Origin: Candidatus Saccharimonadota bacterium
GTDB taxonomy: Bacteria; Patescibacteriota; Saccharimonadia; Saccharimonadales; Saccharimonadaceae
Direction of reading: 5' to 3'
NCBI GenBank assembly: GCA_030535695.1
Contig: JAUNRI010000002.1
Coordinates: 1-32,070 of the forward strand
Length of the DNA stretch: 32,070 bases
Positions 10,229-28,978 of this stretch are shown piece by piece. The position numbers and the translations under genes were made by a program. Under the pieces are notes generated by a model. That model had not been told where the DNA came from. It was given only the letters and a program-made list of their open reading frames with translations, and did not search any database. Within the stretch, counting starts at the first letter, position 1; the number at the start of each line of letters is the position of its first letter.

Positions 10229-12043
10229 ATGGTTTTAGAGAAAGACAAAATTCGGAATGTGGCAATTATCGCTCATGTGGACCACGGCAAGACCACCTTG
10301 GTGGATGGTCTTCTTAAACAGTCCCATACTTTTCGCGATAACCAAGCCGAAATGTCTCAGACTCTAATTATGGACTCTGGCGACCAAGAACATGAGCGGG
10401 GAATTACTATCACCGCCAAGCAGACTTGCGTGCATTATAATGGCTATAAAATTAACATTATTGATACTCCGGGGCATGCTGATTTTTCTGGCGAAGTGGA
10501 AAGAACTCTTAATATGGCAGATGGAGTTTTACTCATTGTAGATGCTCAAGAAGGTCCGATGCCACAAACTAAGTTTGTTTTACAAAAGGCTCTCGATCTT
10601 AAATTAAAACCGGTGGTAGTGATTAATAAAATCGACAAGCCGGCGGCGAGAATTGACGAAGTATTGTCAGAAATAGAAAGCCTATTTTTGGAACTTGCAA
10701 CGGACGAATCGCAGCTGTTTTATCCAGTGTATTATGCGATTGCTAGAGAGGGTAGGGCTGGCAAAACTACGGATCTTGATGATGATTTACATGTAATTTT
10801 TGAATCGATCATTAATGATATTCCGGCACCATCGGTGGATGAAAACGCCGAATCGGCTCAGCTTTTGGTAGCGGCACTGGCGGCCGATAATTATCTTGGC
10901 AAATACTGTATTGGTAAAATTTTTAGAGGCAAACTTAAAAAAGGCCAAAGTGTCAAAGTTTTACATAATGGTGAAACCAAAAATGGCAAGGTTGAGAACC
11001 TGTTTATCTATAAGGGGCTTGGTAAAGAGGAAGTGCAAGAGGCGATTGCTGGGGATATTGTGGCAATTACGGGAGTATCTGAGGCTAACATTGGCGATAC
11101 CATCGCGACTGGCGATAACCCAGAGGCTTTGCCGACGATTGAGTTAGAAGCACCGACGCTTTCGATTTATATTGGGCCAAATACTTCACCTTTAAAGGGG
11201 CGTGAAGGCGAATTTACAACTTCACGGCAAATCGCCGAAAGACTTGAAAAAGAGTTGGAAACTAATATTGCGCTCAAAATTAAGCCAGATGGTTTGGGCT
11301 ATAAAGTATCTGGGCGTGGGGAGCTACATCTTTCGGTTTTGATTGAAACGATGCGACGCGAAGGCTACGAACTAGAAGCTGGCCGGCCAGAAGTGGTTTA
11401 TCGTGAAATTGACGGGGTAAAATCCGAGCCGATTGAGTCTCTTACCATTGAAGTTGATCCAGAATTTGTGGGTGCTGTATCTCAAGAACTCGGTATCAGA
11501 AAAGCTGAATTAAAATCTCAAGAAATTACTACATCTGGCTCAACACGGTTTGTTTATGAAATTTCTACCGCGGCTCTGATTGGCCTTAGAAATAATCTTC
11601 TTACCGCTACTAAGGGTACTGTAATTATGTCTTCGATTCCGTCTGGCTATCGCCCAGTAGATTCTAAATATCGCCCAGAGAGAAATGGGGCTTTGATTGC
11701 TTCAGAAGATGGTGTTTCTACGGCTTATGCCCTGGATGCGGCCCAGGCGCGCGGTATATTGTATATCCCGCCACAGGTGCCGGTATATCAAGGGATGATC
11801 GTAGGGCTTTCTAACAAAAAAGACGACCTAGATTTTAATGTCTGCCGCGAGAAGCAGCTCACCAATATGCGGACCCACGCTTCGGATGGAGCAATTCAAC
11901 TAACTCCATATACACAGTTATCTTTGGAACAATGTTTGGATTTTCTTTTGGATGACGAGCTTCTAGAAGTCACGCCAAAATCGCTGCGTCTTCGTAAGCG
12001 GCAATTAGACCCAATCAAAAGAAAGCGGGAGAATAGAAATTGA
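10229..12043 (+). CDS. typA: Ribosome-associated GTPase TypA/BipA
   Basis: 604 residues, full length for the family. Translational GTPase related to EF-G and LepA that binds 70S ribosomes and assists 50S assembly and stress growth. G1 is AHVDHGKTT (~15), the switch I region ends in RGITI, G3 is DTPGHADF (~77) and G4 is NKID (~131). After the beta-barrel domain come the EF-G-like domain III/V segments and the TypA-specific C-terminal domain, ending in the basic tail KSLRLRKRQLDPIKRKR. It is expressed from a leaderless promoter. The stop (12041-12043) lies inside a hairpin-rich stretch that leads into tatD. Confidence 0.96.
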   Translation: MVLEKDKIRNVAIIAHVDHGKTTLVDGLLKQSHTFRDNQAEMSQTLIMDSGDQEHERGITITAKQTCVHYNGYKINIIDTPGHADFSGEVERTLNMADGVLLIVDAQEGPMPQTKFVLQKALDLKLKPVVVINKIDKPAARIDEVLSEIESLFLELATDESQLFYPVYYAIAREGRAGKTTDLDDDLHVIFESIINDIPAPSVDENAESAQLLVAALAADNYLGKYCIGKIFRGKLKKGQSVKVLHNGETKNGKVENLFIYKGLGKEEVQEAIAGDIVAITGVSEANIGDTIATGDNPEALPTIELEAPTLSIYIGPNTSPLKGREGEFTTSRQIAERLEKELETNIALKIKPDGLGYKVSGRGELHLSVLIETMRREGYELEAGRPEVVYREIDGVKSEPIESLTIEVDPEFVGAVSQELGIRKAELKSQEITTSGSTRFVYEISTAALIGLRNNLLTATKGTVIMSSIPSGYRPVDSKYRPERNGALIASEDGVSTAYALDAAQARGILYIPPQVPVYQGMIVGLSNKKDDLDFNVCREKQLTNMRTHASDGAIQLTPYTQLSLEQCLDFLLDDELLEVTPKSLRLRKRQLDPIKRKRENRN

Positions 12044-12127
12044 CCGCTCTAGGAGACGAGCAAAAAGAAAACTCGTTTTCTTTTTCGAGACGACGACGAG
12101 CGGACAACCAATCCGTAGGATTGGTTG
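12044..12127 (+). repeat. Paired hairpins across the typA-tatD junction
   Basis: Two stem-loops follow the typA stop. The first has an outer CCGCTC/GAGCGG pair (12044-12049 with 12098-12103) and an inner AAAAAGAAAA/TTTTCTTTTT stem (12062-12071 with 12076-12085) with a CTCG loop. The second is a perfect 10-bp stem, CAACCAATCC/GGATTGGTTG (12105-12114 with 12118-12127), with a GTA loop. It contains the probable tatD start codon at 12121. There is no long T-run after a GC stem, so a terminator is unlikely; control of tatD translation or an insertion scar is possible. Confidence 0.6.
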
Positions 12128-12921
12128 ACACCCACTGCCATCTACACGATAGAGAGTTCTTCTCGGAAGAACAGGCAGAGGAAATGTTAAAACGGGCCCG
12201 TGAAAAAGGGATTGAAAAAATAATTTGTATCGGGACTTCACACGAAGATTCACTGGCCGCTCGTGATTTTGCCATAAATCATGATAATGTTTATTGGACC
12301 TACGGGATTCATCCCGAGGGGGCAACAGAAAACGTCCCTGTCGGGGCATTTCGGAGCGCGGCAGCGCGAGAATTAGCGCCGTCCGCCCGTGGCGACGGGC
12401 CGGACGGACGCGGCCCCGATAGGGATGTTTCTGTTGTCCCCATCGCCATTGGCGAGGTGGGACTGGATTATCATTATGAGGGCTATGATCGCGAAGCGCA
12501 GATTAAATTATTCGAGGAAATGCTGCAGCTTGCCCGCGATAATGATTTGCCAGTATCTTTTCATGTGCGCGAAGCATTTGAAGATTTTTTTGCGGTAATT
12601 GCTAATTTCCCAGAGATTAAGGGTGTGGTGCATTCATTTTCGGATAATAAAAAGAATCTAAAACGAATTCTTGAGAACACGGATTTTTATATTGGTGTGA
12701 ATGGCCTGGCTACTTATTCTACTTTGCCCACTCCACCGCTTGAAAGAATCATTCTAGAGACAGATGCGCCATTTTTGACACCAGTGCCATTTCGTGGTAA
12801 AATAAACGAATGCGGCTATATTAGAGAAATAGCCGAATGGCTTTCAAACAAACTAGATACTAGTTTTGACCAGGTGGAGAAAGAAACTACCAAAAATGCG
12901 GAAAAATTATTCAAATTTTAA
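12121..12921 (+). CDS. tatD: TatD-family metal-dependent hydrolase (DNase) carrying an in-frame palindromic insert
   Basis: 266 residues from the TTG at 12121, giving the usual TatD N-terminus VDTHCHLHD. The frame is open back to a TTG at 12040, but the extra 27 residues (QKENSFSFSRRRR) lie in a hairpin region and look non-native. Metal ligands are present: HxH (THCH), Glu in IGEVGLDY, His in SFHVREA, His in GVVHSFS, Asp in ETDAPFLTP. The family cleaves DNA 3'-5' and acts in repair. Between GIHPE and VVPIAIGEVGLDY, where homologues have about 20-25 residues, there are about 39, rich in Ala/Arg/Gly/Pro and encoded by the palindromic element at 12318-12441. The reading frame survives, so the enzyme may be functional with an extra surface loop. 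Confidence 0.85.
   Translation: MVDTHCHLHDREFFSEEQAEEMLKRAREKGIEKIICIGTSHEDSLAARDFAINHDNVYWTYGIHPEGATENVPVGAFRSAAARELAPSARGDGPDGRGPDRDVSVVPIAIGEVGLDYHYEGYDREAQIKLFEEMLQLARDNDLPVSFHVREAFEDFFAVIANFPEIKGVVHSFSDNKKNLKRILENTDFYIGVNGLATYSTLPTPPLERIILETDAPFLTPVPFRGKINECGYIREIAEWLSNKLDTSFDQVEKETTKNAEKLFKF
12318..12441 (+). repeat. Intragenic GC-rich palindromic element, copy 1 (inside tatD)
   Basis: A 124-nt inverted-repeat structure. The arms, 12318-12347 and 12413-12441, pair over about 29 bp with one bulged A and three G-U pairs. They enclose a core of about 65 nt at roughly 75% G+C in an AT-rich genome. The core (12349-12416) starts TTTCGGAGCGCGGCAGCGCG and holds the hairpin GTCCGCCCGT / ACGGG-c-CGGAC with loop GGCG. 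It matches the reverse complement of 16608-16675 at about 62 of 68 positions by hand alignment. It is translated in frame as part of TatD without a stop. Confidence 0.85.
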
Positions 12922-14597: not shown

Positions 14598-15725
14598 ATG
14601 ATTTATTTGGATCATGCGGCAGCCACGCCGGTTTCTAAAAGAGTGTTTGAGGCGATGAAGCCGTATTTTTTGGATGATTTTTTTAACCCTAGTGCGGCTT
14701 ATCTTCCAGCTAAAAAAGTGTCCGCTGATTATGAGGCTGCCAAAGGCATAATTGCCCATGCGATTGGAGCCAAAGCCAATGATTTAGTGATGACCGCCGG
14801 AGCGACCGAAGCGAATAATCTCGCATTTAGCGCTGCCAATAATGGCGCTGTGCTGTATCTGGCTACTGAGCATGATTCGATCCGCAAGGTAGCTCAGAAA
14901 TATAACGGTCAAGAGATAAAAGTAGATAAAAATGGGCGGATTTTACTTGACGATTTGAAAACCAAAATTAATGATGAGGTGGTATTGATTTCGGTGGCGC
15001 TCTGTAATAATGAGCTTGGTACGATTCAACCTTTGTCGGAAATCGCGGCGATGGTTCGCGAAGTGAGACTTGACCGGCTTTCTCGCGGAATTAAAAAACC
15101 GCTTCATCTTCATTCGGATGCGTCGCAAGCTCTCAATCTTTTAAATGTAAATGTGGCAAGGCTCGGGGCGGATCTTCTCACTCTTAACGCCGCCAAAGTT
15201 TATGGCCCAAAAGGTGTGGGATGCCTATATGTATCGCACGAGGTAAAATTGTCGCCGCTTAATTATGGTGGTGGACAAGAAAATGGGCTGCGCTCTGGTA
15301 CAGAGAATGTGCCGGGTGTGATTGGTTTTGCTAAGGCGGTAGAAGAAGCCGTAAAGCACATGAATGGCAACCGCAAAAAATATGCCGAGTATAAAAAGAT
15401 TTTGCTATCCGAATTACAGGGGTATGAATTAGTCAATAAAAAGCACTCTCTTGACAATTTTGTAGTTTTGTGCTATAATGGTATAGATGCAGAAAGATTA
15501 ATCTTTCTTCTTGAAGAAAAATGGGTGTATGTATCTACAGGGGCAGCTTGCGCGGCCTCTAAGGGTGAAAAATCGCATGTTTTATCGGCGATTGGATTAT
15601 CTGATTCCGAAATCGCCGGGTCGTTACGGTTGACTCTTGGCGAGACTAATGATGAGTCGCAAATCCACGAAGCCGCTAAATTGATCAACGAAGCAGTAAA
15701 TATAGAAAGGAAGAGAAGTGTCTAA
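14598..15725 (+). CDS. Cysteine desulfurase, NifS/IscS type
   Basis: 375 residues. PLP enzyme that takes sulfur from cysteine as a protein persulfide. IYLDHAAATP at the N-terminus, TAGATEANNLA (~58), HSDASQAL (~170), the PLP-lysine region LNAAKVYGPKG (~198) and the mobile catalytic Cys in STGAACAASK (~320) are all present. mnmA follows with an 8-nt overlap, so the likely main job is to supply sulfur for tRNA 2-thiouridine, directly or by relay. No Fe-S scaffold genes are seen nearby. The coding sequence contains a consensus promoter at 15451-15479. Whether it is IscS- or NifS-like cannot be decided here. Confidence 0.92.
   Translation: MIYLDHAAATPVSKRVFEAMKPYFLDDFFNPSAAYLPAKKVSADYEAAKGIIAHAIGAKANDLVMTAGATEANNLAFSAANNGAVLYLATEHDSIRKVAQKYNGQEIKVDKNGRILLDDLKTKINDEVVLISVALCNNELGTIQPLSEIAAMVREVRLDRLSRGIKKPLHLHSDASQALNLLNVNVARLGADLLTLNAAKVYGPKGVGCLYVSHEVKLSPLNYGGGQENGLRSGTENVPGVIGFAKAVEEAVKHMNGNRKKYAEYKKILLSELQGYELVNKKHSLDNFVVLCYNGIDAERLIFLLEEKWVYVSTGAACAASKGEKSHVLSAIGLSDSEIAGSLRLTLGETNDESQIHEAAKLINEAVNIERKRSV
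15451..15479 (+). promoter_or_regulatory. Perfect consensus promoter inside the cysteine desulfurase gene
   Basis: TTGACA (15451-15456), exactly 17 bp, TATAAT (15474-15479), with TGC directly before the -10. It points toward mnmA, whose start is 239 nt downstream. The first ATG after it (15487) opens only a four-codon frame. Confidence 0.65.
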
Positions 15726-16845
15726 AACTGTATTTGTTGGTATGTCTGGCGGAGTGGATTCTAGTGTTTCGGCACTACTTTTGAGGCAGCAAGGCTACAA
15801 AGTGGTGGGGGTTTACATGAAAAACTGGTCCCAGGATCTTCCTGGTATGAAATGCCCGTGGGCAGAAGATTTGGCGGACGCCAAACGGGTGGCGGTGAAA
15901 CTAGGGATTGATTTTGAGGTTTGGGATTTTGAAAAGGAATACCGCAAAAAAGTGGTAGATTATATGCTTGCTGAGTTTAAAGCCGGCAATACGCCAAATC
16001 CTGATATTATGTGTAACCAAGAGATTAAATTTAAGTTGTTTTACGAAAAAGCGATGAAAGCTGGAGCGGATTTTATCGCCACGGGGCACTATGCCAGAAT
16101 TATCGAAGGCAAATTGGCTAAAGCCGTAGATGAGAAGAAGGACCAAACCTATTTTTTGTATCGAATCTCGGACGAGGCACTTTCTCATACGATTTTCCCG
16201 ATTGGCGGGATGCTTAAAAAAGATGTCAAGAAATTGGCCGAGGAAAATGGACTTCATAATGCCTACAAAAAAGAGTCGATGGGAGTTTGTTTTGTGGGTG
16301 AAGTTTCGATGAAAGATTTTCTTAAGGAATATATTGAAATAAAGCCGGGGGAAATTCGCGAAATTGAAACCGAAAAAGTAGTGGGGCATCACGAAGGGGC
16401 TGTGTTTTATACAATTGGTCAGAGACATGGACTTTATATCTCTGGAAATGTGGGCGAAGTAAATACTGGCCTGCCGTATTATGTAGTTAAAAAAGACCTT
16501 AAAAATAATATCGTATATGTGTCTAGGAATTTGAATAACGATAATGTATGGGTAGATGAGTTGAAATTGAAAGATGTTGTGGTGCGAACCGAGTACGTTG
16601 CTTCTCGGGCCGCGTCCGGTCGGCCCGTCGGCACGGGCGACCGGCGCTCATTCTCGCGCTGCCGCGCTCCGAAAGTCCCTCGAAGCAAGTACTCGGTTCG
16701 CCTCAGACATCTTGGTGAACTTATTCCTGCTACACTGCAAAATGACACACTTCATTTTGAACGTAGAATCAAAAAGCCGGCGGCCGGGCAATCGGCAGTG
16801 TTTTATGATGGCGAAATTTGCCTCGGTGGCGGAATTATTTTATAA
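15718..16845 (+). CDS. mnmA: tRNA-specific 2-thiouridylase MnmA carrying an in-frame palindromic insert
   Basis: 375 residues from the GTG at 15718, with GGAAGAG upstream and an 8-nt overlap with the desulfurase gene. It thiolates U34 of tRNA-Lys/Glu/Gln. The PP-loop GMSGGVDSS is at the N-terminus, the nucleophile Cys in NPDIMCNQEIKF (~98), the persulfide-relay Cys in MGVCFVGE (~190), and GQRHGL near 235. In the C-terminal beta-barrel, between ELKLKDVV and VRLRHLGELIPATL, about 36 residues replace the usual 12-18. The extra part is Arg/Ser/Gly/Pro-rich and is encoded by the palindromic element at 16582-16702. FYDGEICLGGGII closes the domain normally, so the frame is intact and the active site untouched. 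Confidence 0.93.
   Translation: MSKTVFVGMSGGVDSSVSALLLRQQGYKVVGVYMKNWSQDLPGMKCPWAEDLADAKRVAVKLGIDFEVWDFEKEYRKKVVDYMLAEFKAGNTPNPDIMCNQEIKFKLFYEKAMKAGADFIATGHYARIIEGKLAKAVDEKKDQTYFLYRISDEALSHTIFPIGGMLKKDVKKLAEENGLHNAYKKESMGVCFVGEVSMKDFLKEYIEIKPGEIREIETEKVVGHHEGAVFYTIGQRHGLYISGNVGEVNTGLPYYVVKKDLKNNIVYVSRNLNNDNVWVDELKLKDVVVRTEYVASRAASGRPVGTGDRRSFSRCRAPKVPRSKYSVRLRHLGELIPATLQNDTLHFERRIKKPAAGQSAVFYDGEICLGGGIIL
16582..16702 (-). repeat. Intragenic GC-rich palindromic element, copy 2 (inside mnmA, inverted)
   Basis: Same element as in tatD, in the opposite orientation. Arms: GCGAACCGAGTAC at 16584-16596 pairs perfectly with 16689-16701, then 16598-16604 with 16682-16688, then 16607-16609 with 16677-16679. 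The core (about 16608-16675, read on the minus strand) begins TTTCGGAGCGCGGCAGCGCG. It contains the hairpin GGTCG-c-CCGT / ACGGG-CCGACC with loop GCCG. The arms share no sequence with those of the tatD copy; the core does. It is translated in frame in MnmA. Confidence 0.85.
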
Positions 16846-28336: not shown

Positions 28337-28978
28337 ATGATTAAATTCACGATTGTTACGCTGTTTCGGGAGGCTTTGGAGCCATATCTTAATACCTCGA
28401 TGATGTGGAAAGCTAAAGAGAAAGGCTTGGCCGAGTTTGAATTTGTAAATTTGAGAGATTTTGGGTTGGGACCGCATAAATCGGTAGATGATACGCCTTA
28501 TGGTGGTGGCGACGGGATGCTTTTAATGTGCGAGCCAGTTTTTAACGCGATAGAATCGGTCAAAACCAAGGATCCGTCGGCCAAGGTAATTCTTCCTACT
28601 CCTGTAGGGGAAATCTGGAATCAGGAAATGGCAAGAATATTTGCTAAGGACGCTCACTATATCATTCTATGCCCGCATTACGAAGGTTATGACGAAAGGA
28701 TTTTATCGATTGTGGATTATAAGATTTCGCTTGGAAAGTTCGTGTTGACGGGTGGGGAACTCCCGGCTCTAGTGATGATAGATTCAATTGTAAGGTTGAT
28801 TCCAGGGGTGTTAGGCGGGGAAACATCTGCCGAGATTGAATCTTTTTCTAATGGCGATAATCTAGAATATCCGCAATATACCAAGCCTTACGATTTTCGT
28901 GGGATGACAGTGCCAGATGTTTTGCTGTCTGGCAATCACGGGGAAGTGGATAAATGGCGCGAGGAACACAGTAAATGA
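28337..28978 (+). CDS. trmD: tRNA (guanine-N1)-methyltransferase TrmD
   Basis: 213 residues, at the short end for TrmD (about 230-260) because the C-terminal helical tail is trimmed. It methylates G37 of tRNAs next to the anticodon and prevents frameshifting. TPYGGGDGMLL (~55) and LCPHYEGYDERIL (~111), then the trefoil-knot AdoMet site LGKFVLTGGELPALVMID (~133) and VLGGETSAE are all standard. The N-terminus MIKFTIVTLF is a near match to the usual MxxxIxTLFP. It is the first gene of a unit with recG and rsmD; the recG ATG overlaps its stop (ATGA). It usually stands with rplS/rpsP/rimM, which are absent here. Confidence 0.94.
   Translation: MIKFTIVTLFREALEPYLNTSMMWKAKEKGLAEFEFVNLRDFGLGPHKSVDDTPYGGGDGMLLMCEPVFNAIESVKTKDPSAKVILPTPVGEIWNQEMARIFAKDAHYIILCPHYEGYDERILSIVDYKISLGKFVLTGGELPALVMIDSIVRLIPGVLGGETSAEIESFSNGDNLEYPQYTKPYDFRGMTVPDVLLSGNHGEVDKWREEHSK

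Follow-up and report, generated by a model that had tools for sequence, protein, structure and literature searches.

Two in-frame stretches of tatD and mnmA are copies of an apparently undescribed family of hairpin elements in rumen Saccharibacteria

Two stretches of DNA inside the tatD and mnmA genes of a Candidatus Saccharimonadota bacterium are copies of an apparently undescribed family of hairpin elements, very probably translated inside essential genes of rumen Saccharibacteria. Both lie in the window, the stretch of 32,070 nucleotides that we analysed. In a whole-genome search the core in tatD (12349-12416, plus strand) and that in mnmA (16607-16674, minus strand) were 91% identical over 68 nt (62/68, E 5.5e-22), a similarity far beyond chance. 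The initial annotation had given the same count and the same tatD position, but its mnmA core, 16608-16675, was one base off. It had also proposed that the element is read through in frame, in opposite orientations, and we confirmed that both copies are open in the frame of the host gene and that their core orientations are opposite. The 15-20 residues that it assigned to each insert agree with tatD, which has about 15-19 extra codons compared with the two short alleles seen (165 nt vs 108 and 120 nt between conserved motifs), but not with mnmA, where the excess is about 26-29 codons (186 nt between motifs vs 99-108 nt in empty alleles). Similarly, the 68 nt are correct for the core, whereas the full element with its paired arms is larger, about 12318-12441 and 16583-16705. 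Both copies form a strong hairpin on either strand, with z-scores against dinucleotide shuffles of -9.9 (tatD) and -7.9 (mnmA). Beyond that first reading, the flanking arms are also palindromic, site-specific and partly host codons, the same sites are used by several other core types, and the structural constraint follows the strand of the element and not that of the gene. We found no description of such elements in Saccharibacteria in the open-access literature, although absence there does not prove novelty.

The alignment of 48 copies, gap-free over 123 columns, gave a consensus fold which is a three-way junction, with two hairpins, P2 and P3, closed by a stem, P1. P1 has about 22 bp with bulges; its sequence is different in every copy and its pairing is kept. 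P2 consists of GCGC-GGCA-GCGC above an internal loop, and in P3 a stem of 12 bp and 3 bp is joined by two bulged bases and ends in a conserved apex. The loops and junction bases are conserved, while the stems vary in pairs, with both-sided changes at 30 of the 42 consensus pairs. Including the arms, the element is about 115-125 nt long. In relatives P2 is replaced by GGTTACGACC, and one type-A copy of genome G052 has both the P2 and the P3 stem replaced. The tatD open frame of the window (12040-12921, plus strand, with a likely start near 12124 and orthologues in 94/99 genomes of the genus) carries the element with its core in gene orientation at 12318-12441, where the covariance model matched 12318-12440 (E 1e-33). 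The 5' arm of P1 lies at 12322-12346, P2 at 12351-12371 (alignment columns 34-54), P3, with the conserved GTGGCGAC apex, its two bulged bases and a stem varying by paired changes, at 12376-12411 (columns 59-94), and the 3' arm, an inverted copy of the 5' arm, at 12414-12437, all on the plus strand. The mnmA open frame (15718-16845, plus strand), supported by orthologues, holds the core antisense to the gene at 16583-16705 (minus strand; covariance-model match 16581-16705), a segment absent from empty mnmA alleles. Here the parts, all on the minus strand, are the 5' arm at 16677-16701, located by column mapping of L003:1477-1599, P2 at 16652-16672, P3 at 16612-16647 and the 3' arm at 16586-16609. 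As a separate observation, two copies, L379 (G000 C64) and L410 (mnmA of G061), seemingly have another short stretch (around CCCCTTGGGACG) within P3, which may be a nested insertion.

The element is not confined to the two copies originally noted, since the genome of the window contains at least eight: a genome-wide core search found seven places at E <1e-10, and an eighth, a covariance-model match, lies in a der-like gene on another contig. By a DNA search of 150 relatives the core was present in 61 genomes counting the window's own, that is in 60 of the 89 other genomes of the genus, and in none of other genera. The covariance model, built from the 48 copies, reached four genomes in two further genera of the same family, with the same architecture, and it also detected more diverged members within the genus. 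Up to 14 copies per genome were scored in relatives; copy numbers are lower bounds, as at most 6 or 14 candidates were scored in each genome. Among the matches listed for the exact P2 motif, most come from Candidatus Saccharibacteria of ruminant guts, including Ca. Nanosyncoccus alces, and the unrelated GC-rich genomes probably match this 18-base pattern by chance. No Rickettsia is among the matches listed, which says nothing on homology to the elements of that genus. Three exact 18-base matches occur on viral contigs, and the core profile recognised no element in them. Rfam 15 gave no known RNA family at the gathering score, only matches at chance level. When copies were assigned to genes by open frame, 97 of the 121 fell in open frames at about 41 sites (~80% genic, in both directions), and the insertions are placed either in loops of housekeeping genes or intergenically. 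The genomes, without exception, are fragmentary assemblies from metagenomes or similar sources. Cores from the same genome were not significantly closer to each other than other cores (0.847 vs 0.837, p 0.09), so that donor-recipient pairs cannot be traced, and cores from the same site were slightly closer (0.869 vs 0.838, p <0.0005). In a genome of another genus (G285, g72; L362-L365) we also observed diverged elements whose GC-rich stems have 25 bp; they lie in frame in genes which include one with a GTPase motif and one resembling thioredoxin reductase.

Judged from the empty orthologues at trmD and mnmA, the element is an insertion. In the final set, 32 trmD alleles are empty and 35 have extra sequence after the conserved A-R-x-F-A codons and before H-Y-I-I-L. 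Most of the longer alleles are palindromic but not all, and some resemble unrelated loop extensions; the counts therefore mix palindromic inserts with other extensions of the loop. The window's own trmD (28337-28978) is empty. The tatD loop that holds the element in the window is occupied by an insert of some kind in nearly all species, and several core types are represented there. On the TrmD tree the insert state, one of four, changes at least 25 times, with a mean of 29 after shuffling, and most forks are weakly supported. The genomes G072 and G079 are well-supported sisters which have opposite core orientations and similar arms in trmD. The same is seen in obgE of G047 and G050, where the bulged base moves with the core. 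Such pairs fit either inversion of the spacer between inverted repeats, which is known from template switching, or repeated insertion. No direct target duplication was noticed in the trmD and mnmA alleles, by eye only and without a systematic scan; the flank is duplicated inverted.

Some further inserts were observed at these sites. The trmD loop of relatives (L220-L257) has no fewer than four other types of insert, which differ in their cores and likewise have paired arms, for example those of G068/G075/G063/G053, which form a long hairpin around GGACGAACCTGTC, of G035/G038, of G022/G080/G040 and of G082. In mnmA a second, separate insertion site lies near residues 128-133 (G006, G025, G052, G084 and others) and contains both core orientations. 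Some empty mnmA alleles, for example in G050 and G020, have a short palindrome, GCGGAGT...ACTCCGC, at the place of insertion. It could mark a place where insertion is favoured, or be what a lost copy left behind.

The arms of P1 are the most unusual part of the element. An arm pair was found in 92/92 copies, with a commonest length of 22-24 nt, and the arms of different copies are unlike, without a consensus beyond a few bases; only close to the core does the inner arm show a motif in common, and this is weak. At sites with three or more copies, compared in the correct register, outer-arm agreement was 0.80 between the two arms of one copy, 0.58 when the arms came from different copies of one site and 0.51 when they came from unrelated sites, which indicates that the second arm follows each species' own codons. 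The right arms in mnmA mirror the species' own K-x-L-x-F-R codons, and at both trmD and mnmA one of the two arms consists of conserved coding sequence of the host, which empty alleles have too. In tatD of the sister genome G007 the left EGATE codons, the outer part of the 5' arm in the window, are the same, but the core is different and nothing complements EGATE. From this we infer that the left arm of the window's tatD copy is native and the right arm an inverted copy. In the alleles compared, one arm of P1 consists of native codons and the other is an inverted copy of that species' own codons. In mnmA of G000, G007 and G046, native sequence pairs on both arm sides, and it is thus not excluded that selection adjusted partial palindromes which already existed.

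The element also has a preferred reading frame. Among the 97 genic copies, sense cores are read in frame 1 in 28/35 and antisense cores in frame 0 in 51/62, although the little-used alternatives are open as well (frame 0 sense in 109/121 cores and frame 1 antisense in 119/121). Counted by distinct sites, the used frame exceeds the alternative by 19 to 2 for sense and by 24 to 5 for antisense cores (p 1e-4 and 3e-4). Compared with the unused open frames, those in use encode more Ala, Gly, Pro and Ser, with a lower charge in the sense orientation and fewer hydrophobic residues in the antisense one. Both the frame preference and the peptide composition are expected from selection for a tolerated peptide, which argues that the insert stays in the mRNA and the protein. 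It is very probable that the insert is translated as an Ala/Gly/Pro/Ser-rich loop; this is read from codons alone, as no RNA or protein data are available.

The stem is asymmetric between strands. Among imperfect pairs of P1 on the element strand, G-U outnumbers A-C by 96 to 13, and extra bases are found 133 times in the 5' arm vs 29 times in the 3' arm, with peaks near positions 5 and 13-16 from the core. The ratios are 36:5 (G-U:A-C) and 40:8 (5':3' extra bases) in sense copies, 43:6 and 71:16 in antisense copies and 17:2 and 22:5 in unassigned copies. Each bias is significant in each of these groups separately, and an earlier set of copies agrees. The p-values are weakened by the relatedness of copies by descent; with one copy per site the ratios are about 21:2 for wobbles and 19:3 for extra bases, so the effect does not come from a few lineages. 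In the mRNA of a host gene the wobbles of antisense copies are A-C mismatches, and selection on the host transcript cannot explain them. The fold, as inferred from these substitutions, is constrained as DNA or RNA of the element strand and not as host mRNA. The best reading of this asymmetry is that a folded single strand which takes part in spread is selected, or is acted on selectively. DNA is likelier than RNA, because antisense and intergenic copies are kept as well as sense ones.

How could such an element arise? We consider it probable that it is a mobile palindromic element of non-coding origin whose arms are made and renewed when template switching folds the strand back, in hosts that lack SbcD, and whose fold is kept for mobility. 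In this process a copy of the core would enter a new site, where the nascent strand may fold back on the core hairpin and copy the adjacent host sequence by template switching, giving a paired arm. Later switches between the arms would re-homogenise them and flip the core. Hosts which lack the palindrome nuclease SbcCD would tolerate the long palindromes, and the folded element strand would be recognised during spread. Template switching in replication is known to produce perfect stems in one event, to correct arms and to invert loops (PMC8794818, PMC8604942). It accounts for the second arm being an inverted copy of host sequence, for arms that change in concert and for cores that flip. By itself it predicts no strand bias of wobbles and bulges, so that a second factor must be assumed, and it leaves unexplained by what route cores arrive at new sites. 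SbcCD normally attacks long palindromes. SbcD over the family cut-off was found in 0/60 genomes of the genus vs 8/14 control genomes; its absence would permit such inserts and may underlie the tolerance of long palindromes. No mobilising enzyme was found among the three kinds sought, Y1 transposase, reverse transcriptase and tyrosine recombinase. A Y1 transposase is present in only 3/99 genomes and absent in G000, reverse transcriptase is present but not associated with the element (Fisher p 0.82), and tyrosine recombinases are usually represented by one XerC-like integrase per genome, with none in the copy-rich G006, whose genome is 79% complete. Many genomes of the genus (about 60/99) encode reverse transcriptases of about 350-450 aa, for example at G000 C49:1882-2595; these are unrelated to the presence of the element and possibly belong to diversity-generating retroelements. 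We tentatively suggest, as a possibility short of an even chance, a mobile class which carries only a small folded core, gains a target-matched stem at each site and moves as a folded single strand by means of one-arm bulges and an unidentified factor.

Other explanations have to be weighed against template switching around a mobile core. The element could be an ordinary MITE or Rickettsia-type palindromic element, whose own terminal inverted repeats diverged with compensating changes after old insertions and which has no target-derived stem. Insertion in frame into housekeeping genes, the preferred reading frames and the weak shared motif of the inner arm near the core would agree with this, but the arms pair without the common sequence expected of conserved terminal inverted repeats, one arm at trmD and mnmA is host coding sequence found in empty alleles, and reading the alleles of both by eye brought no direct target duplication to notice; we regard it as unlikely. 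Is it a folded single-strand recombination site, like integron attC or the hairpins of Y1/REP systems, in which a recombinase reads bulges on one strand? The bulged bases of one arm at fixed distances, the sequence-free stem and the strand-specific constraint would all suit such a site, which we nevertheless hold to be quite unlikely: the arms lack conserved outer boxes or a cleavage motif, Y1 transposases are nearly absent, and the single XerC-like integrase of most genomes is missing from the copy-rich but incomplete G006.

A structured site or antisense RNA useful to the host and selected at each locus would account for the strong preservation of the fold across large sequence divergence. 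Neighbouring species, though, differ in its presence at the same site, core types interchange, and copies occupy many unrelated sites, about 80% of them genic and in both directions, which makes this reading very unlikely. An element acting at the mRNA level, such as an intron, a ribosome-bypass hairpin or a cis-regulator in the host transcript, seems hardly tenable. It is suggested by the strong RNA fold at in-frame positions, but the wobble bias of antisense copies (43:6) is on the strand opposite the mRNA, the choice of frame points to translation, the stem holds native codons so that skipping would remove conserved residues, and no Rfam family matched. Finally, assemblies are fragmentary throughout, which might raise the suspicion of an artefact, or the two genes might share one sequence by ancestry; we give these practically no credence. 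The same element, with site-specific arms and open frames, recurs in independent assemblies from many animals and studies, the Ca. Nanosyncoccus alces record included, and some orthologues of tatD and mnmA either lack it or have another element in its position. The copies in relatives, the independent assemblies and this comparison of alleles rule out both vertical origin within single genes and an assembly artefact. None of the outcomes which the initial annotation had named as refuting it, namely no further copies, vertical descent in orthologues or a chimeric assembly, was thus met, and its proposal that this lineage has a new family of short elements, mobile or structured and resembling those of Rickettsia, is supported by the many copies and by orthologues that are empty or have other inserts.

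In this family non-coding hairpins have become part of essential proteins dozens of times independently, in minimal genomes and in both orientations, and the choice of frame shows what proteins tolerate. Its empty and filled alleles in about 100 species also make it a natural system for following how template-switch hairpins are formed and maintained, and for studying the lack of SbcCD.

Among known systems, REP/RAYT differs in its Y1 transposase, which only 3/99 host genomes have. Double-hairpin elements of fungal mitochondria and hairpin elements of sponge mitochondria are, as here, mobile-looking GC-rich units of several hairpins. They occur in other genomes and have other sequences, and we know of none which is a coding, translated insertion with a host-derived stem. 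The attC sites of integrons likewise fold as a single strand (PMC3053210). They also have extrahelical bases on one arm and a free stem sequence. Unlike attC, our element has no conserved R-box ends, its outer arm positions being unconserved, and no cassette or dedicated integrase. Template-switch hairpins share the inverted adjacent copies, homogenised arms and spacer inversion, but lack a conserved mobile core and a strand-specific pattern of bulges (PMC8794818, PMC8604942). The coding palindromes of Nematomorpha mitochondria are also long inverted repeats in translated genes, but the abstract of that report does not describe a shared conserved core or a dispersed family, both of which are present here (PMC6649704). 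In function and habit the closest parallel is the Rickettsia palindromic elements, palindromic repeats of around 100-150 bp and of many families which lie in frame in unrelated housekeeping genes as well as between genes and have a preferred frame that yields a recurrent peptide (PMC10969869). Our element fits this description as a short palindromic repeat, in frame in unrelated housekeeping genes and also intergenic, with a preferred frame and a recurrent peptide; membership in that group is not established, as no homology was compared. What sets it apart is that its arms are site-specific, are partly copies of the host gene and have their pairing constrained on the element strand. A target-derived stem is, to our knowledge, not part of the Rickettsia description. 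Should the stem really come from the target, this would be an anatomy of mobile elements of which we know no earlier description.
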